From Leadbetterella sp. (GTDB lineage: Bacteria; Bacteroidota; Bacteroidia; Cytophagales; Spirosomataceae): a DNA stretch of 38,299 nucleotides. The notes beneath the pieces were generated by a model. The model saw nothing but the letters and a program-made list of their open reading frames with translations. It ran no database searches and was not told the origin of the DNA. Below are positions 17,896 through 25,253 of the stretch, one piece after another (the first letter of the stretch is position 1; each line of letters starts with the position of its first letter). The position numbers and the translations under genes are program-made. The stretch covers positions 1 through 38,299 of the forward strand of contig JAIPAJ010000011.1 of the NCBI GenBank assembly GCA_021740125.1, read 5' to 3'.

Positions 17896-18267
17896 TTACT
17901 CCTTTATGTCTGCCAATTGATCCTTGCTGATTTCTTTTTGAACAATTTTTGAAAAAACAGCTGATTTATAGTTCCTACTTGATTCTAATGGATTAATTCC
18001 TGGCTGAACATTTAGGGTATTATTACGTAAAACTAGCAAGTCTTGAATTCCATTTTCCCTGTTAAACACCTGATGTTTATAATTTTGAGGTGAGTCAAAA
18101 GAATTAGAAACCGAAGCATTTTTTTTGTTAATGGCAATTTCTTGTGTTTTTACCTGTATCCTTTCCTGAACTGGCATTTTATAATTTCTGGCCGAATTGG
18201 TTTGACCAAAAACTGCTAAAGTTGGAATTAACATTGTACCAAGTATTATTCTTATTAAATTTTTCAT
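17896..18267 (-). CDS. Small secreted protein with three NYK repeats
   Basis: The 123-residue product has a signal peptide (residues 1-21, ending VFGQ). The mature chain contains three spaced copies of an S-x-x-N-Y-K-x-x-V motif: SARNYKMPV, SPQNYKHQVF and SSRNYKSAVF. The stretch between them is polar and charged, and no enzyme family is recognised. The best-preserved TTAG operator of the window (18328-18364) and a TAGGTTTG -7 box lie upstream. It is therefore a predicted target of the response regulator at 21534-22226. It may be an envelope protein; that is inference. Confidence 0.75.
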   Translation of the reverse strand: MKNLIRIILGTMLIPTLAVFGQTNSARNYKMPVQERIQVKTQEIAINKKNASVSNSFDSPQNYKHQVFNRENGIQDLLVLRNNTLNVQPGINPLESSRNYKSAVFSKIVQKEISKDQLADIKE

Positions 18268-18308
18268 TTGTTTTGTTGTAATTATTTGTCCTCGACCTGA
18301 TGACTATA

Positions 18309-18364
18309 CAAACCTAAGACACTAATATTAGACCCAACTTAGGTAAAAATTAGAAAGTTATTAG
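18309..18364 (-). promoter_or_regulatory. Promoter with four TTAG direct repeats (NYK-repeat gene)
   Basis: TTAG starts at 18328, 18339, 18350 and 18361 on the plus strand, exactly 11 bp apart. The -7 box TAGGTTTG (minus strand, 18316-18309) ends 12 bp from the first repeat start. Tandem 11-bp repeats are the binding pattern of OmpR/PhoB-family dimers. Confidence 0.75.
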
Positions 18365-18483
18365 AATTTGTATGGTCACTTTTTTTATTGAAATTATAAT
18401 TAAGAAACTAATATTAGAATTGGCTCAGAGTCCAATATACACCTTAAATAATATTATAGAATAAGGCCACAAAAGGAATAAAC

Positions 18484-19131
18484 TCACCTGATCTTTACGC
18501 CATAGGTGACGTGGTAAATACTCATGTGGATTTTCTTAATTGGATTATTCTGAAAATCTATAAATTTTAAGTTCTCCATTAAATATATTTCCTTTGGCAC
18601 ATACCTTAGCATACTTTTATTTACAAAAACCGAGTTCACATTTTGTAATTTTTGAAGCGAGAAATTGGTTGGAAATTCTCGATTGTTTTCCAAATGTAAA
18701 ATTCTCAGTTTGGGTATAGCTGCAATGACTTCAAGGCTATTCTCAAAATCTAAGTTTCGTTCATTATCAATGAATAGTTCCTCTAAAGACTCGAAAGAAG
18801 ATAAGCTTTGTGGTAAGGAAGAAAATAAGTTTTCGCCAACATCTAAAACTTTGAGGTTCTGAAGTTTTGAAAGTTCTTCCGGAAAAATTTTGAAATGATT
18901 GTTTCTAAGATTTAAATATCTAAGGTTTTTAAAAAGGGATATTTCCTGCGGTAAGGACTCCATATTCAGGCCACTTAAATTTAATCTTGTTACTTTATCA
19001 GGAAAGGCCAAAGCCTGTTTGAGTTCGGTGTATTCTTTCTCTTGGGCAAATACAAAATTTAGTGATCCAATTTGAGCCATAACAATGGCCAATAAAATCC
19101 TTATGTTTGTTGAAGCTCTCATGTTTTTCAA
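18484..19131 (-). CDS. Exported leucine-rich repeat protein
   Basis: The 215-residue product has a signal peptide (about 1-29, ending FVFAQ) followed by leucine-rich repeats over most of its length: VTRLNLSGLNMESLPQEI, LRYLNLRNNHFKIFPEEL, LKVLDVGENLFSSLPQSL, LEELFIDNE, LRILHLENN and LKFIDFQNN. The LPxEI/L turns are typical of bacterial and plant-type LRRs, which serve as binding surfaces. There is no other domain, so a role in protein binding at the cell envelope is the most that can be said. It lies between the SPFH lipoprotein gene and the NYK-repeat gene on the same strand, and no TTAG repeat array was found directly upstream. Confidence 0.85.
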   Translation of the reverse strand: MKNMRASTNIRILLAIVMAQIGSLNFVFAQEKEYTELKQALAFPDKVTRLNLSGLNMESLPQEISLFKNLRYLNLRNNHFKIFPEELSKLQNLKVLDVGENLFSSLPQSLSSFESLEELFIDNERNLDFENSLEVIAAIPKLRILHLENNREFPTNFSLQKLQNVNSVFVNKSMLRYVPKEIYLMENLKFIDFQNNPIKKIHMSIYHVTYGVKIR

Positions 19132-19237
19132 ATTTAGGTTTTACAGATAAATTTATACTACTGAGTGACAGTTAATTACTGGTAATCAGTGTTTTGAATA
19201 AACCAAGACTTATACATTTCTAACTTGCCAATGTTTG

Positions 19238-20023
19238 TTATTTATCCGAATTGGCATTCAGCATAAGCGGTTGCTCGGCACTGGTTATGATAACTTTGGC
19301 ATTTGGCGAGGCTGATAGCTTTTTAAATGCCTCGATAGCCTTGAATCTAATTAACAAAGGTGTGAGGCCTTCTGCTACGATTTTTTGTGCGTCTCTAATT
19401 CCTTCGGCTTCTATAATTAACCTTTTGGCCTCCTGCTTTTCCTTATCAAGCACAAATTGCATTCTTTGTGAATCTTGCTCTGCTTCCAATTTGTCCTCTA
19501 TGGCTTTCGTAAGGCCAGGAGGCAACACGATACTTTTTAACAATACCGATTCCACAACAAAGCCTCTTTCTTTGAGTTGAGTCATCATTAATTCCTTAAT
19601 TGATTTCTCAATGACCGACCTTTGTCCAGTATGCATATCTTTGGCATAGTACTGTGAAGAAATATCGGCTACCGCAGATCTGAAGACAGGCAAAATAACC
19701 ACCTGCTCATAATTTTTACCCAATTTTTCTATAACTTTAGGGGCGTAGCTTCCCTCCAAACGATAGAGTATTGAAACATCAGACTGAACGGTTAGACCTT
19801 CTTTTGAAGGAAGTGGCACTCGGACTTCCAAGTTCATTGTGCGGGTGGGCAACTTGATTATCGTACTAGTAAACGGATTAAACCCTCTAGCACCTTCCAT
19901 GAGAGGCTCAGACTTTATTTTACCGAACGATCGCTTTACACCAACCTCTCCTTGGCGAATTATAGTACAACTACTAAAAAATAAACTAAAAGCAATTCCC
20001 ATTAAAACCAATCGTGTTTTCAT
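19238..20023 (-). CDS. SPFH/prohibitin-family lipoprotein
   Basis: The 261-residue protein starts MKTRLVLMGIAFSLFFSSC, a lipoprotein signal with Cys19. An upstream in-frame Met at 20068 would bury that signal, so 20023 is preferred. The SPFH (band 7) domain spans about 25-200: RQGEVGVKRSFGKI, then TRTMNLEVRVPLPSKEGLTVQSDVSILYRL. It continues in a helical, probably coiled-coil, segment (IEDKLEAEQDSQRMQFVLDKEKQEAKRLIIEAEGIRDAQ). SPFH proteins form membrane-bound rings that scaffold proteases and stress responses. The upstream TTAG repeats and -7 box (20073-20128) predict control by the adjacent two-component system. Confidence 0.88.
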   Translation of the reverse strand: MKTRLVLMGIAFSLFFSSCTIIRQGEVGVKRSFGKIKSEPLMEGARGFNPFTSTIIKLPTRTMNLEVRVPLPSKEGLTVQSDVSILYRLEGSYAPKVIEKLGKNYEQVVILPVFRSAVADISSQYYAKDMHTGQRSVIEKSIKELMMTQLKERGFVVESVLLKSIVLPPGLTKAIEDKLEAEQDSQRMQFVLDKEKQEAKRLIIEAEGIRDAQKIVAEGLTPLLIRFKAIEAFKKLSASPNAKVIITSAEQPLMLNANSDK

Positions 20024-20072
20024 CTCTATGTAAATTTTAGTTTTATTATTTGATGCCCTTTTGAGCACAGAA

Positions 20073-20128
20073 CAAAGCTAAAACCTAACTATTAGAACCA
20101 ACTTAGGAGGAAATTAGAAGAATATTAA
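20073..20128 (-). promoter_or_regulatory. Promoter with TTAG direct repeats (SPFH gene)
   Basis: TTAG starts at 20092, 20103 and 20114, with TTAA at 20125: four units at exact 11-bp steps. The -7 box TAGCTTTG (minus strand, 20080-20073) ends 12 bp from the first unit, the same register as at 18309-18364. The core CCTAAGTTGG is also shared with that site. Confidence 0.75.
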
Positions 20129-20129
20129 A

Positions 20130-21488
20130 TTATCGTTTAGGAAGACAAACCTCAAAAAGAATTAGATCTTGATCTGGTTTGGATACTTCTATAGTCCCGA
20201 GATGCATTTCTACAATACCTTTTACCAAGGAAAGACCTACTCCATGACCCACTTTGTTTTTCGAATTACTTCCTCTCTTGAAGGGCTCAAAGATGTTATT
20301 TAGATCTTCGTCAGTTATGTTTTGAAAATTATTTTGGAATTGGATGATGACATCTTGGGGGGTATTTCTCACCTCAATATCGACTTTCTGATCTAATGAG
20401 TACTTAATCCCATTGTCAATGAGATTATAAAAAGCCGTATAAAGCAATGGTGGATTACCAAGAAGCTCGGGTATTTCTTCCTCATCAAAATCGAATTTTA
20501 TCAATACATGGGCAAAAGGATTTTTCTTAATAGCTTCGTCTCTAACTCGCGACATTTTGTCAAGCACGTTCACCAAGCTTAGATTGGAATTCGTCGAGTA
20601 TGAGGTGAGAGAGGTAAGGTCCAATAAATTATTGCTCAGTCGATTAAGTTGCTTTACATCTTCTAGCACCGATTGAATCATTTTCTTCAGGTCTTCAGGA
20701 CTATCATCTGCCAAAAGCGAAACCTGAATCTGCCCAGTAATAGAAGTCAGTGGGGTTCTTAGCTCATGTGATGCATTCGATACGAATGCCTTTTGAGCCA
20801 AAAAAGACTTTTGCAGTCGATCAAGCATCTGGTTAAATCTGTCGGCAAGTTGGGCAAATTCATCATTTTCACCACCTACTTCCAAACGTTCGCCTAATTG
20901 AGAGGCTTTAATTTTGTCAATTTTTCTAATAATTTCCTGAATGGGATTTAACATTTTTTCCACAAAAAACCAGCCAGTAAGAGCACTCAAAAACAAAATA
21001 CATAAGCCCCCAATTATAAGAACATACCTAAGGTTTTGAAGTTTAAATAATCCATAATTATCTATGGCATATGAAACAATGACATAATTCTGGTTATTTT
21101 TTTCAAACAAAATACCTATGAATTCGTGTTTTGAATCCACCCAATAATACTCTTTTTGGGCTTTTATTTTCTCTAAAACTTCTTTTTGTATTTTAAAACC
21201 ATCTTCACCACTTTCATAAATTACATGATTTTTACTATTAAAAATTACGATTTCCTCATTTGTAAGAACCGTGAAATCGTTTCTATCAAGGAGTTTAAGT
21301 ACCTCTGGACTTATACCTTTTTTATTAAAATAGATGTTTGCTGCCGAAAGTGCCTCTTTTCTCAATCTGTCCTTAAATTCTGCCTTTCGGTAATCTTTAC
21401 TCTGAATGTATATTACCACACAAAAAAAGGTCATTAACACAGAAGTGATGGCGAGATAAATTATTATTAGTTTGTTCCTAATCTTCAT
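20130..21488 (-). CDS. Sensor histidine kinase with HAMP domain
   Basis: The 452-residue kinase starts at the ATG at 21488 (MKIRNKLIIIYLAI); the longer frame upstream adds only a poorly plausible tail. It has a first membrane segment (about 7-27), an extracytoplasmic region (about 30-150), a second membrane segment (about 153-176), a HAMP linker (to about 230), a phosphoacceptor ASHELRTPL with His241, an N-box (NLIDNGIKYS) and G-boxes (IFEPFKRG and GHGVGLSLVKGI). It is encoded 45 bp downstream of its response regulator and shares organisation and sequence style with the pair at 1-1876. Its stimulus is unknown, but the predicted targets (SPFH, TerC, envelope proteins) point to envelope or metal stress. 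Confidence 0.93.
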   Translation of the reverse strand: MKIRNKLIIIYLAITSVLMTFFCVVIYIQSKDYRKAEFKDRLRKEALSAANIYFNKKGISPEVLKLLDRNDFTVLTNEEIVIFNSKNHVIYESGEDGFKIQKEVLEKIKAQKEYYWVDSKHEFIGILFEKNNQNYVIVSYAIDNYGLFKLQNLRYVLIIGGLCILFLSALTGWFFVEKMLNPIQEIIRKIDKIKASQLGERLEVGGENDEFAQLADRFNQMLDRLQKSFLAQKAFVSNASHELRTPLTSITGQIQVSLLADDSPEDLKKMIQSVLEDVKQLNRLSNNLLDLTSLTSYSTNSNLSLVNVLDKMSRVRDEAIKKNPFAHVLIKFDFDEEEIPELLGNPPLLYTAFYNLIDNGIKYSLDQKVDIEVRNTPQDVIIQFQNNFQNITDEDLNNIFEPFKRGSNSKNKVGHGVGLSLVKGIVEMHLGTIEVSKPDQDLILFEVCLPKR

Positions 21489-21533
21489 TATTTTTTGACA
21501 AAATTTGAGCAAGTTTGCTATCAAAACCCTATT

Positions 21534-22226
21534 TTACTTACTTTTCAAGGTATAACCCATTCCAAATATTGTATGAATAAGTTTGTCTGTAAATCCTTTA
21601 TCTATCTTATTTCTGAGATAGTTTACATACACTTCTATAAAGTTTGTACCTGTATCAAAGTCAATATCCCAAACATGCTCTGCAATATCGAGTTTCGAAA
21701 CTACTCTTCCTCGGTTTCTCATCAGGTATTCTAAAAGGCTAAATTCCTTTGCCGTTAAAGCAATCACTTTACCTGACCGAATCGCTACTTTTTGATGAAG
21801 ATTCAGCTCAAGATCCGCAACTTTTAAAATTTCATCCTCCTCTTTCAACTTTTCGTTACTTCTTTTCAGTAGGGCTTTTATTCTAACCAAAAGCTCCATA
21901 AAATCGAAAGGTTTAACCAGATAGTCGTCTGTTCCAACCTCAAAACCAGAGAGTTTGTCACTCACGCTTCCTAGAGCCGTAAGCATTAAAACAGGAATTT
22001 GAGTGTTTTTTTTTCTAATTTCCTCACATACTTCGAGACCACTAAAATCTGGCAAACCGATGTCTAAGATGACAAGATCAAACTTTTGAGATTCAAAAAA
22101 ACCTAGAGCTTCTCGGCCGGTAGTTGCAATAACCGAAATATAACCTTGAGTAAACAAGCCTTTTTTTATAAATGAGGCTACCTTTTCTTCGTCCTCAACA
22201 ATTAAAATAGTTTTGCTGTCACTCAT
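21534..22226 (-). CDS. OmpR/PhoB-family response regulator (likely TTAG-repeat binder)
   Basis: The 230-residue regulator starts at MSDSKTILIVEDEE (ATG at 22226); an in-frame ATG 42 bp upstream gives an atypical extension. The receiver domain has acidic residues in VEDEE, phosphoacceptor Asp55 (LVILDIGLP), the LMLTALG Thr and DYLVKPF Lys. The winged-helix output domain ends in VYVNYLRNKIDKGF and FGMGYTLKSK. It is followed by its kinase. TTAG repeats at 22272-22308 suggest autoregulation, and matching arrays precede three other transcription units in the neighbourhood. DNA binding to these arrays is predicted, not shown. Confidence 0.93.
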   Translation of the reverse strand: MSDSKTILIVEDEEKVASFIKKGLFTQGYISVIATTGREALGFFESQKFDLVILDIGLPDFSGLEVCEEIRKKNTQIPVLMLTALGSVSDKLSGFEVGTDDYLVKPFDFMELLVRIKALLKRSNEKLKEEDEILKVADLELNLHQKVAIRSGKVIALTAKEFSLLEYLMRNRGRVVSKLDIAEHVWDIDFDTGTNFIEVYVNYLRNKIDKGFTDKLIHTIFGMGYTLKSK

Positions 22227-22252
22227 ATTTTTATATTTTTGAAAATAATTCT

Positions 22253-22308
22253 GAAATCTACTAATCACAAATTAGAGTTTTCTTGTAAAAACATTAGATA
22301 ATCCTTAG
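22253..22308 (-). promoter_or_regulatory. Autoregulatory promoter with TTAG repeats (response regulator)
   Basis: TTAG starts at 22272, 22294 and 22305, with the near match TTGT at 22283: four units at 11-bp steps. The -7-like box TAGATTTC (minus strand, 22260-22253) keeps the 12-bp register seen at the other sites. The last repeat overlaps the stop codon of the DUF2490 gene. Confidence 0.65.
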
Positions 22309-22988
22309 AATTTCTTTTTGCTTAAAATGGTGTGATAGTATCCTATTTGAACGAAATTTTTCCCCGTTTCATCATTTATTTTGTAATCAAACTGGTTCAA
22401 AAAACCTACCATAAAGGAATTGGCAGGACCAGGTTTGTAAAAGACATTTACAGAAAATCTATTTCGCTCAAAATAGGGTTCATTATTGGTAAAGAAAAGT
22501 TCATTAAAAACACCTAGCTCAATATTGTCTTCCGGGAAAATGGGGTAAATCACACCTAATCTATTCCGAAATCGGTTCTTATATCCTTGCGAGGTAAACC
22601 TCATTTCAGTCCTGAATCGGTTTTCGATTTTGAACTTATTAATTTCTTGCGAAATTTGCACTTGAGGCCAAAGTCTGATCTCTGAATTGTTTTTGGGTAA
22701 TTCAAAATTTCCACCTTCTTTATAAGTATCATATTTCCCTACCGCCATGGATAGCATTAAATTTTTATGGGCCTTATAATTTATTCCCCCCTTAAATTCA
22801 TGGTAATGAAATTCGTTGTAATATTTTAAAGACCTCAACTGTCCCTCCGCAAACAGAGTAAATCCATTGTTTAAGTCTATTCTTAGGTTTAAAATATTCC
22901 AAGAACCAGTAGACTGACCAGAAGTCTGAAAAACGTTAAAAAACAATAGAAAGAATGTGGAAAACCTTTTTAACATTTTAGTATTCAA
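22305..22988 (-). CDS. DUF2490 family outer-membrane-type protein
   Basis: The 227-residue product has a signal peptide (about 1-24) and then amphipathic beta-strands throughout, typical of the DUF2490 family of predicted outer-membrane barrels. Landmarks are WNILNLRIDLNNGFTLFAEGQ, the strand pair NRFRTEMRFTSQGYKNRFRNRLGV, the FNELFFTNNEPYFERNRFSVNVFY segment and an aromatic C-terminal strand (NFVQIGYYHTILSKKKF). Function is unknown for the family. It starts 4 bp after the TerC gene stop, so the two should be co-transcribed, and it precedes the response regulator. A remnant of a related gene lies at 27787-27984. Confidence 0.85.
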   Translation of the reverse strand: MNTKMLKRFSTFFLLFFNVFQTSGQSTGSWNILNLRIDLNNGFTLFAEGQLRSLKYYNEFHYHEFKGGINYKAHKNLMLSMAVGKYDTYKEGGNFELPKNNSEIRLWPQVQISQEINKFKIENRFRTEMRFTSQGYKNRFRNRLGVIYPIFPEDNIELGVFNELFFTNNEPYFERNRFSVNVFYKPGPANSFMVGFLNQFDYKINDETGKNFVQIGYYHTILSKKKF

Positions 22989-22992
22989 ACAT

Positions 22993-23688
22993 TTACTTTT
23001 TTACAGTTTTCATTTGAATGATATCCACCAAAAATGCAAAAGACATAGAAAAATATATATAGCCTTTCGGAATTTCAAATGATAATCCTTCGGCTATCAA
23101 TGAAACACCAATCATCATCAAAAAACATAGAGCCAAAACCTTAAAAGATGGGTGCTTACTAATGAATTCGCTAATGGGTTTGGAGGCCACCAACATTATT
23201 AAAACAGTAACGATTACCGCTGTGTACATAATCCAAAGCTCTTGAACCATTCCAACTGCAGTAATTATAGAATCTATTGAAAAAACCAAATCGAGAATAA
23301 TAACCTCAGAAAGTAATTTCGAAAAAGAACCTTTTATGAGATTTTCCTTATCTCTTGAGTTTTCGTGAAGCTCTGTTTTATGATAAATCTCTTTAGTACT
23401 TTTATAGATCAAAAACAATCCTCCAAACAGAAGAATTAGCCCTTTTCCCGTAAAATCGGTATCCAAAAGGGAAAATAGAACTTCGTCAAGTTTTAATATC
23501 CAAGATATTAATGCCAACAGTACCAATCTCATCACCATAGCCAAGCCAATTCCCCAATATCGCAGTTTGTTTCTCTGTTCTTCTGGTAGTTTGTCCGCAA
23601 GAATAGAAATAAATATGATATTGTCAATTCCTAAAATTACCTCTAGGGCAATTAAAGAAAGTAAAGGGATTATAATTTCAGAGAGCAT
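22993..23688 (-). CDS. TerC-family integral membrane protein
   Basis: The 231-residue protein starts at MLSEIIIPLLSLIALEVILGIDN (ATG at 23688; a Met 27 bp upstream is less likely). The TerC signature ALEVILGIDNIIFISILADKLP and its second-half counterpart VIILDLVFSIDSIITAVGMV carry the paired Asp residues in membrane segments. About seven membrane helices are predicted. TerC homologues export Mn(II) or load metal into exported proteins in other bacteria, and were first named for tellurite resistance. The two TTAG repeats and -7 box upstream predict control by the adjacent two-component system. DUF2490 follows in the same operon. Confidence 0.9.
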   Translation of the reverse strand: MLSEIIIPLLSLIALEVILGIDNIIFISILADKLPEEQRNKLRYWGIGLAMVMRLVLLALISWILKLDEVLFSLLDTDFTGKGLILLFGGLFLIYKSTKEIYHKTELHENSRDKENLIKGSFSKLLSEVIILDLVFSIDSIITAVGMVQELWIMYTAVIVTVLIMLVASKPISEFISKHPSFKVLALCFLMMIGVSLIAEGLSFEIPKGYIYFSMSFAFLVDIIQMKTVKK

Positions 23689-23712
23689 ATTTTGATTAAA
23701 TATATTGAATAA

Positions 23713-23768
23713 CAAAAGTACCTATCTTATCGCACCATTTGGACGGATAAATATTAGAATTTCATTAG
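23713..23768 (-). promoter_or_regulatory. Promoter with TTAG repeats (TerC-DUF2490)
   Basis: TTAG starts at 23754 and 23765, 11 bp apart. The -7 box TACTTTTG (minus strand, 23720-23713) places these in repeat positions 3 and 4 of the register used at the other sites; positions 1 and 2 (23732 and 23743) are not conserved. Confidence 0.55.
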
Positions 23769-23794: not shown

Positions 23795-24763
23795 TTAAAA
23801 ACTAAAATACTGAACAGTAGCAAAATAAAGTGGCATTCCAAGTGTTATATTAATAGGAAAAGTAATTGCTAATGCCATGGGCAAATATAAGCCTGGGTTC
23901 GCTTTGGGGACAGTTATCTTCATTGCCGCTGGAACAGCAATGTATGAAGCACTGGCTGCTAAAATACCAAACATAAACCTATTTGAAATATCGCTGGTTA
24001 AAAATCCACTAAGGATAGAAAATACAACTCCATTGATCAATGGAATAAAAAAAGCGAAAACTATTGGAAACCACCCAAATGAAAAAAACGATTTAAGTTT
24101 TTTACCACTTGTTAATCCCATATCCATTAAAAAAATCGCTAAAAACCCTTTAAATAAATCGTTCGTAAACGGCTTTATTCCTTCAGCTTGCTTTGCATTC
24201 GCTAAAAAACCTATTACCAAACTTCCCAAAATTAAAAGGACGCTACCATTAGTCAAACAGTGACTTATAATTGACATTTTTCTTATTTTTGTACTCTTTT
24301 CACCTTCGAAAATAGAAATTAAAATAAGACCTATAATTATTGCAGGAGACTCCATAAGGGCCATAATTGCTACCATGTAACCATGGGTGTTTAACTGCAA
24401 AGTTTCTAAATATGCCACAGAAGTAACGAATGTAACAGCACTGACAGATCCATATGAAGCAGCAATTGCACCAGCATCTTGTACAGATAACTTCCTTCTT
24501 AGTATAAAATATGTATAAACCGGAATTATTATTGAAATAGCTATACCAAAAATCATCGCAATTCCAATTTCTGAGTTAAACGTTTCGTGGGATAATTCTT
24601 GTCCTCCTTTAAATCCAATTGAGAACAATAAGTAAATAGAAATAAATTTTGATGAATTGGAAGGGATCTCCAGGTCGCTTTTCAAATAAACTGCCAAAAT
24701 ACCCAAAACAAAAAATAACAGTGCAGGATTTCTTAAATTCTCGATTAGTAAATCAACATTCAT
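23795..24763 (-). CDS. sbtA: SbtA-type sodium-dependent bicarbonate transporter
   Basis: The 322-residue, ten-helix-type permease begins MNVDLLIENLRNPALLFFVLGILAVYLKSDLEIP, the hallmark of the SbtA family (DUF897). Other landmarks are FSIGFKGGQELSH, AGAIAASYGSVSAVTFVTS and the second-half ASASYIAVPAAMKITVPKANPGLYLPMALAITFPINITLG. In cyanobacteria SbtA takes up bicarbonate with sodium and is controlled by the PII-like SbtB; no SbtB-like gene is seen here. It starts 1 bp after the stop of the 162-residue gene upstream. In a heterotroph, imported bicarbonate would feed carboxylases; that is inference. Confidence 0.9.
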   Translation of the reverse strand: MNVDLLIENLRNPALLFFVLGILAVYLKSDLEIPSNSSKFISIYLLFSIGFKGGQELSHETFNSEIGIAMIFGIAISIIIPVYTYFILRRKLSVQDAGAIAASYGSVSAVTFVTSVAYLETLQLNTHGYMVAIMALMESPAIIIGLILISIFEGEKSTKIRKMSIISHCLTNGSVLLILGSLVIGFLANAKQAEGIKPFTNDLFKGFLAIFLMDMGLTSGKKLKSFFSFGWFPIVFAFFIPLINGVVFSILSGFLTSDISNRFMFGILAASASYIAVPAAMKITVPKANPGLYLPMALAITFPINITLGMPLYFATVQYFSF

Positions 24764-24764
24764 A

Positions 24765-25253
24765 TTATACCTTGTGAGTTAGTTTCAAATGATTAAATAC
24801 AGTTTTGTTTTCAGAAATAATTAGTCCTCCTATTTCTATGTTGCTTGTCAAAATATGACTCCCAAGAATATTTGACTGTAGTATCTCAAGCGTATAATAC
24901 GATATACTAAGTTCTGCCAATTTATAGGCTTGTTTGTTTAAAGTTAGACCATTGAAATCAGTTTTGTAGTTTTTATGAAACAATTCTCGTAAGACTTCTA
25001 CACTTCGGAAATGGCATTGTTTTGAGTTACTAATAACTTCATTAATAAATCTACATGTTGTACTATTTACAATAATGATTTCAGTTATTTTTTCAGTTTC
25101 AATTATGCATTTTAGTGCATTCAAAAATTGAATATCCGTTGTTTCAACAGAAGCTAATGGTGAGGTTAGAAAATAAATTGACTTTCCAAACTTCTTCTTT
25201 AAAACAGGCTCTAAACAAGAAAAAGGACAAATAATAAACAATTGATTTGGCAT
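24765..25253 (-). CDS. Unknown protein in sbtA operon; possible degenerate beta-carbonic anhydrase
   Basis: The 162-residue cytoplasmic protein has alternating strands and helices. Two segments line up with beta-carbonic anhydrase motifs: FIICPFSCLEP (6-16) with the CxDxR loop, and ITEIIIVNSTTCRF (56-69) with the HxxC loop preceded by a helix like SLEYAV. In this alignment Cys9 and Cys67 are kept as zinc ligands, but Asp, Arg and His are replaced by Phe11, Cys13 and Ser64, so catalysis would be lost or altered. The alignment was made by eye and is uncertain. Spacing of 1 bp to sbtA makes co-transcription near certain, so a regulatory or bicarbonate-binding partner role is plausible. Confidence 0.7.
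   Translation of the reverse strand: MPNQLFIICPFSCLEPVLKKKFGKSIYFLTSPLASVETTDIQFLNALKCIIETEKITEIIIVNSTTCRFINEVISNSKQCHFRSVEVLRELFHKNYKTDFNGLTLNKQAYKLAELSISYYTLEILQSNILGSHILTSNIEIGGLIISENKTVFNHLKLTHKV

Follow-up and report, generated by a model that had tools for sequence, protein, structure and literature searches.

We analyzed a 38,299-nucleotide stretch of Leadbetterella sp. DNA (contig JAIPAJ010000011.1, positions 1 to 38,299; hereafter, the window), in which the genes for an OmpR/PhoB-type response regulator (RR) and an adjoining sensor histidine kinase (HK) lie among genes for an SPFH lipoprotein, a small secreted protein with three NYK motifs, and a TerC-DUF2490 pair (Table 1). Four promoters of this locus carry direct repeats at exact 11-bp steps, and these repeats keep their spacing, are conserved in related genomes and are linked to the adjacent regulator gene. 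The receiver domain and the C-terminal winged helix of the regulator were both recognized (E values of 2.1e-27 and 2e-24, respectively), and phmmer matched the protein over nearly its full length to 1kgs, PrrA, RegX3 and PhoP. Its best-scoring NCBIfam model was TIGR01387 (CzcR/SilR/CopR), at 242.2 bits and thus under the cut-off of 279.2; PRK09836 (Cu/Ag) reached 211 bits, likewise under its curated cut-off, and the RprY family model NF051850 reached 130.8 bits, under a cut-off of 370. The kinase scored best against the heavy metal sensor kinase model TIGR01386 (176.9 bits, under the cut-off of 292.55). The nearest named matches of the regulator were those of Lacihabitans sp. CS3-21 (97%) and L. 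soyangensis (90%), and an 89% match was found on a record titled Spirosoma fluviale.

Table 1. Genes and repeat-bearing sites of the regulator locus (window coordinates)
Feature	Coordinates	Strand	Details
OmpR/PhoB-type response regulator, CusR/CopR-like	21534..22226	-	recognition helix TNFIEVYVNYLRNKIDKG; Pfam Response_reg and Trans_reg_C
Sensor histidine kinase adjoining the regulator	20130..21488	-	HAMP, HisKA, HATPase (Pfam)
SPFH/Band 7 protein, predicted target	19238..20023	-	lipobox-like FSSC; Pfam Band_7
Small secreted protein with three NYK motifs, predicted target	17896..18267	-	site 1 upstream
TerC family membrane protein, predicted target	22993..23688	-	Pfam TerC
DUF2490 protein downstream of TerC	22305..22976	-	Pfam DUF2490; overlaps unit 1 of site 3 at its 3' end
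Leucine-rich-repeat secreted protein downstream of SPFH	18484..19122	-	neighbour kept in many loci
Site 1	18309..18364	-	CTAA at 18361, 18350, 18339, 18328; N11; -7 box TAGGTTTG (18309-18316)
Site 2	20073..20128	-	TTAA and three CTAA; N11; -7 box TAGCTTTG (20073-20080)
Site 3	22253..22308	-	CTAA, CTAA, ACAA, CTAA; N11; -7 box TAGATTTC (22253-22260)
Site 4	23713..23768	-	TTCTAAT-N4-TTCTAAT (CTAA at 23765, 23754); -7 box TACTTTTG (23713-23720) 33 nt on

The initial annotation had described the repeats as TTAG-type tetramers on the plus strand, and all 14 tetramers that it quoted are present at their positions in the window. The sites are best read on the minus strand, which is the strand of the target genes, as (CTAA-N7)x3-CTAA-N11-TAnnTTTG. 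The 11-bp step of the earlier description was retained, whereas its repeat unit had to be extended to a full layout of four half-sites at a fixed N11 from TAnnTTTG. In the consensus of 78 sites from related loci (see below), the half-site is TTCTAAT with a 4-nt spacer, and unit 2 is the best kept. Site 1, the promoter of the NYK protein gene, shows 0 mismatches in the 22 pattern positions, site 2, the SPFH lipoprotein promoter, shows 1, and site 3, the regulator's own promoter, shows 3; unit 3 of the latter reads ACAA, in agreement with the degenerate unit recorded previously. The annotation had also claimed a constant distance between repeats and -7 box, which is exactly 11 nt at sites 1-3 but 33 nt at site 4, the TerC-DUF2490 promoter. 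The repeat is indeed present there and in register, but as two units only, at the places of units 1 and 2, with units 3 and 4 missing.

Comparison of orthologous promoters, which had been suggested as a check, aligned the window with loci L051-L053, with the units kept and the flanks variable; site 1 was aligned in these three loci, and site 2 in L051-L054 and L064. Two units followed by N33 and TAnnTTT precede TerC in L051, L052 and L064, as well as in L053, where unit 2 reads TTAA. This layout was not present before TerC in L054, and a four-unit site stands before TerC in L057, L059, L060 and L062.

Within the window, seven TTAG pairs were found at step 11 and none at steps 8-10 and 12-16. 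Three exact TTAG triples occur at step 11; at least three triples were reached by only 1 of 300 first-order Markov sequences, when all non-homopolymer tetramers and steps 8-15 were considered. The full 22-base pattern with at most 3 mismatches gave three sites on the minus strand and none on the plus strand, compared to a mean of 0 in the Markov sequences (n = 300). Thus, the earlier proposition that the phased 11-bp repeats are real was borne out by the Markov tests together with the step and period counts across loci, and a chance origin was rejected on the basis of the Markov runs, the period and gap counts and the family-wide comparison with a 10-bp step, both described below.

To sample related loci, we used relatives of the regulator, not the motif, as bait. 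This yielded 46 sequences totalling 651 kb (L051-L093, L112, L125 and the window), the more distant regulator-relative loci being excluded from the count. At a period of 11, a gap of 11 to the -7 box and at most 3 of 22 mismatches, 76 sites were recovered, compared to none for periods 8, 9, 10, 12, 13 and 14 at any gap of 6-16. Other gaps at period 11 gave 3-21 sites, every one of them on an array that also has a gap-10 or gap-11 site. When the -7 box criterion was dropped (at most 2 of 16 mismatches), there were 93 four-unit arrays at period 11, two at period 12 and none at periods 9, 10 and 13. Exact TAnnTTTG followed these 93 arrays at gap 11 in 56 cases, at gap 22 in 9, and at gaps 10 and 0 in one case each, with none at the remaining gaps within 0-29. 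The 9 arrays with gap 22 have a fifth upstream unit in register, as seen above site 1 in L052. The two-unit form showed a similarly sharp register: CTAA-N7-CTAA-N33-TAnnTTT gave 65 matches in the 46 loci versus 0-6 for N29-32 and N34-37.

For a description of the sites and their targets, we allowed at most 4 mismatches at gap 11 or at most 2 at gap 10 and removed shifted overlapping copies. The resulting 81 sites, of which the 78 gap-11 members define the consensus, are spread over 43 of the 46 loci, and 80 of them lie on the regulator strand; in 42 loci, a site is found within -1.5 to +4.5 kb of the regulator. The titles of loci with sites include Lacihabitans, Emticicia, Flectobacillus, Arcicella, Runella, Spirosoma and Pedobacter. 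An ATG-started open reading frame (ORF) of at least 55 codons begins 2-255 nt downstream of 79 of the 81 sites, which provides an indirect check on the frequency of the repeats in coding regions, although a few that span 68-74 codons may not be genuine genes. By similarity, the downstream ORFs encode NYK-type secreted proteins (21 sites), SPFH proteins (19), the regulator (18), a 99-aa protein (7), TerC (4), another secreted protein (3) and a 120-aa protein (3), with others fewer and no ORF at two sites. The local, self-regulated regulon envisaged in the initial annotation is therefore supported: the loci of relatives carry sites, and the regulator, the SPFH lipoprotein, the NYK protein and TerC recur as targets.

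The NYK proteins, the commonest target of the box, carry two or three motifs such as HNYKH, RNYKM and PHNYKRP and were seen in L051, L055, L061, L066, L081, L084 and others; the window protein had no match in Pfam or NCBIfam. In Pedobacter-type loci, which we take to belong to another order, the box precedes the regulator in L072-L078 and SPFH in L072, L073 and L075-L078; some of these regulator promoters (L073 to L077) have a gap of 10 to the -7 box or an ATAA or GTAA unit 3. Several record titles are at odds with the content of the loci: the 'Alphaproteobacteria' locus L083 is Runella-like, 'Spirosoma fluviale' L053 is close to Lacihabitans, and 'Cellulophaga' L056 is close to Flectobacillus.

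To assess the distribution of the box beyond the baited loci, the 22-base pattern was searched in 200 genomes of the family at up to 3 mismatches. It gave 549 matches in 159 genomes, compared to 41 in 36 genomes for the reversed pattern. The 10-bp-step version gave 11 matches in 11 of the 200 genomes, below the 48 of its own reversed form, the level of the reversed control varying with the pattern. In the genus, 8 of 10 genomes had matches, with none in G073 and G101. In the genomes G084 and G117, the four-unit regulon is local, because every match sits at the regulator's locus. Across the phylum, 32 matches at up to 2 mismatches were found in 26 of 395 genomes (reversed, 11). Five matches lie outside the class; one of these, L215, adjoins HK/RR similarity, and the other four may be due to chance. 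In the class, a refined pattern at the same threshold yielded 38 matches in 27 of 295 genomes and none when reversed, leaving 268 genomes without a match; at this stringency, the box has a wide distribution but is by no means universal.

The assembly from which the window derives (3.74 Mb) is 77% complete, and further sites may be missing from view. An exact triple on its contig C221 lies between two genes, pointing, as judged by eye, at the 3' end of one of them, and was taken as chance. An array on the same contig (C221:19400-19444, locus L014) reads TTAA-N7-TTAA-N7-TTAA-N11-TACTTTTG and is possibly the operator of another regulator of similar kind. In addition, a related layout with CTAACAT units was observed in L208-L210, before genes for 479-485-aa proteins resembling, by eye, carboxypeptidase-regulatory-domain proteins; no HK/RR similarity was found within these 3-kb loci.

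We then compared the loci of other regulators, picked among the matches listed in 20 chosen genomes (59 loci of about -2 to +5 kb on the regulator strand, 4 of them shortened by contig ends). Among regulators of the family with other recognition helices, 0 of 42 had a site at up to 3 mismatches, and one had a site at 4. These 42 comprised 19 RprY-like regulators, none of which had a box nearby at up to 3 mismatches, and sets of 20 and 3; for two RprY-like entries, no helix was extracted. Of the 17 other CusR-like regulators, the CTAA box was found in 2 at up to 3 mismatches and in 4 at up to 4; a further CusR-like regulator outside this set (L286, minus strand) had no box. A variant of the box was found on the minus strand of L312, where two four-unit boxes with TTAA half-sites, the 11-bp/N11 layout and 1 mismatch adjoin a paralogous CusR-like regulator with the helix TNVIDVYVNFLRKKVDKD. 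More broadly, 14 of 19 new loci found with the class-wide pattern adjoin HK/RR similarity, as do 13 of 18 order- or class-level loci of the phylum search (L191 counted in the class), compared to 4 of 19 low-specificity controls, two of which, L165 and L179, resemble genuine Usp-type boxes, and to 2 of 8 in a second control set, both inside the window. The commonest class-wide placement of the box is between the kinase 3' end and a target whose ATG is at most 50 nt away; we take these targets, named by eye, to be UspA-like, TolC/CusC-like and SulP-like. The layout thus belongs to some members of a CusR-like clade. The suggestion that the adjacent regulator is the natural candidate binder agrees with the linkage, the sites before the regulator gene itself and the recurring targets, and we predict it to be the natural binder at the window sites, but the box is not private to it. 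The claim of a box unique to this regulator was too strong and was rejected: other HK-RR pairs of the CusR-like type have similar boxes next to them.

In this phylum, the sigma-A consensus consists of TAnnTTTG at -7 and TTTG near -33. Counted back from the -7 box, units 3 and 4 start at 26 and 15 nt, respectively, which places them on the -33 region, and the 78-site consensus contains no TTTG there. From this placement, we propose that the regulator, once bound, brings sigma-A RNA polymerase to TAnnTTTG, 11 nt downstream. It is likely, on the combined evidence, that the four sites are operators through which the CusR-like regulator activates its own gene and those of the SPFH lipoprotein, the NYK protein and TerC-DUF2490. 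The kinase would phosphorylate the regulator, which would then bind the TTCTAAT-N4 direct repeats as tandem dimers, two on the four-unit sites and one on the two-unit TerC site, with units 3 and 4 covering the -33 region and class-II-type activation of all four targets. Binding by this regulator, the number of dimers and the activation itself are predicted here by analogy with characterized systems. TerC and the CusR-like kinship point, weakly, to metal or envelope stress. A broader proposal, to which we give about even chances, is that four phased half-sites, N11 and TAnnTTTG define a promoter class, the common operator layout of the CusR-like clade through much of Bacteroidia, in which tandem dimers replace a weak -33 element and changes in the half-site (CTAA, CTTA, TTAA) and spacer separate paralogs. 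If so, it could be read from sequence which genes are the targets of many of the phylum's uncharacterised two-component systems.

A number of observations weigh against assigning the sites to this regulator and this mode of action. Three loci, L088, L092 and L093, lack a site at the thresholds of the 81-site set (the L088 contig ends just past the regulator), and L074 qualifies solely through gap 10. Moreover, the counts are not independent, as the loci are related and some are nearly identical (L075/L076; L081/L083/L087). At sites 1 and 2, the stretch separating units 3 and 4 contains TTGG, which lies 18 nt ahead of the -7 box, counting from TTG. This could be a weak -33 element, and because of it, replacement of the -33 element is not certain. 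Furthermore, no CTAA box was found at up to 3 mismatches for 15 of the 17 other CusR-like regulators; therefore, helix class alone does not predict the box. Since paralogous CusR-like regulators have near-identical boxes, cross-binding is possible, and contig C79 of the same genome carries a similar, paralog-type box beside another kinase. These boxes raise the question of whether another regulator is the main binder, either a paralogous CusR-like one or several that share the operator code and cross-regulate. Near-identical boxes do occur beside other HK-RR pairs with Usp-like and TolC/CusC-like targets, and 20 regions fetched by the box itself gave 18 regulators with the helix pattern (T/S)N..(E/D)VY.(N/S)YLR.K, as in the window regulator. 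We nevertheless consider this unlikely: in G084, G117, G093 and G047, the genomes with the four best-matching regulators, 12 of 14 matches (one a shifted copy) lie near the regulator on the same contig, the box precedes the regulator itself at 18 of the 81 sites, and the TTAA units of the paralog-linked boxes in L312 suggest insulation.

The position of the sites bears on two further readings. As they overlap the promoter region, the regulator could repress at some or all of them. The repeats, however, stop 11 nt short of the -7 box and lie over the -33 region, where activators of the OmpR/PhoB family usually bind, and the 78-site consensus has no TTTG in that region, so that we regard repression as improbable. 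Least plausible of all, we find, is that the phased TAA steps form a sequence-directed bend or UP-like element strengthening the promoter without a protein; although the units are A+T-rich, near helical phasing and upstream of the promoter, the step is 11 and not 10, CTAA keeps its C and its TTCTAAT context, and the boxes are linked to one regulator class. Activation by the adjacent CusR-like regulator remains the reading that we prefer.

Three other kinds of element were considered for the window and rejected. Rfam at gathering thresholds gave only a tRNA; sigma-70-type promoters numbered 22, compared to 23.6 expected; and a search for inverted repeats with arms of at least 7 nt, as would suit a palindromic Cop-type box, gave none at sites 2-4. 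Site 1 has two such pairs, and no inverted repeat is common to the four sites. In one pair, the 18339 unit is complementary to the -7 region; the other, a 12-nt inverted repeat of 92% complementarity (TGACTATACAAA/TTTGTATGGTCA, 18301-18312 and 18367-18378), brackets the array just outside its four units.

Direct-repeat operators at 11-bp steps are already known, and the half-sites found here likewise share one orientation and an 11-bp step. Bacillus subtilis PhoP recognizes about four TTAACA-like repeats, and PmrA/BasR boxes read CTTAAT-N5-CTTAAG; both resemble the present sites as A+T-rich direct repeats at an 11-bp step and differ in promoters and sigma factors. The proteobacterial Cus/Cop boxes are palindromic. 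CusR/CopR/CzcR models fit the window regulator best, but its scores stay under their cut-offs and its sites share no inverted repeat. E. coli PhoB binds direct repeats in tandem, with a modelled sigma contact at an overlapping -35 site (PMC3348028, a structural model). PhoB and its pho boxes resemble the window system in the OmpR/PhoB winged helix, the tandem direct repeats and, probably, the overlap with the -35 region. Half-site and target genes differ, and the sites described here normally have four units, placed at a constant N11 from the Bacteroidota TAnnTTTG box. E. coli KdpE contacts two A+T-rich 6-bp direct repeats 5 bp apart, which amounts to an 11-bp step (PMC3264566), but with two TTTATA/TTTACA half-sites in place of four TTCTAAT. 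RprY and HaeR of Porphyromonas gingivalis and PhoB of Bacteroides fragilis belong to the same phylum and regulator superfamily as the window regulator. The available sections of reports on studied Bacteroidota OmpR-type regulators (PMC3764172, PMC3547664, PMC3646045) describe no such repeat, nor do those of the start-site map of F. psychrophilum (PMC9723704). Flavobacterium johnsoniae CusS/CusR is needed for chitin use, and the sections available give no binding site (PMC5127042). Our failure to find a comparable operator in the searched literature on Bacteroidota OmpR-type regulators is weak evidence of absence. As far as these searches show, four features appear to be new: the half-site, the rule of four units, their constant N11 distance from TAnnTTTG, and the occurrence of the box across Bacteroidia beside one regulator clade.

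The code of TTCTAAT-N4 repeats, N11 and TAnnTTTG predicts the regulon of the window system and probably those of sister systems. The layout also hints at a way in which sigma-A promoters are switched when their -33 element is poor, and paralogs within one genome offer a natural experiment in the avoidance of cross-talk. The window contains a third two-component system (regulator at 1196-1876), for which a box beyond the window edge was considered and dropped: in L313 (G084), the corresponding regulator with the same helix residues has no box at up to 4 mismatches. Among the neighbours of the predicted targets, the leucine-rich-repeat protein stands directly behind a site in L065. In addition, a gene for an Sbt_1-type bicarbonate transporter, preceded by one for a 162-aa protein without a Pfam family, adjoins the TerC operon (window 23795-25253) and is kept in L051-L053.

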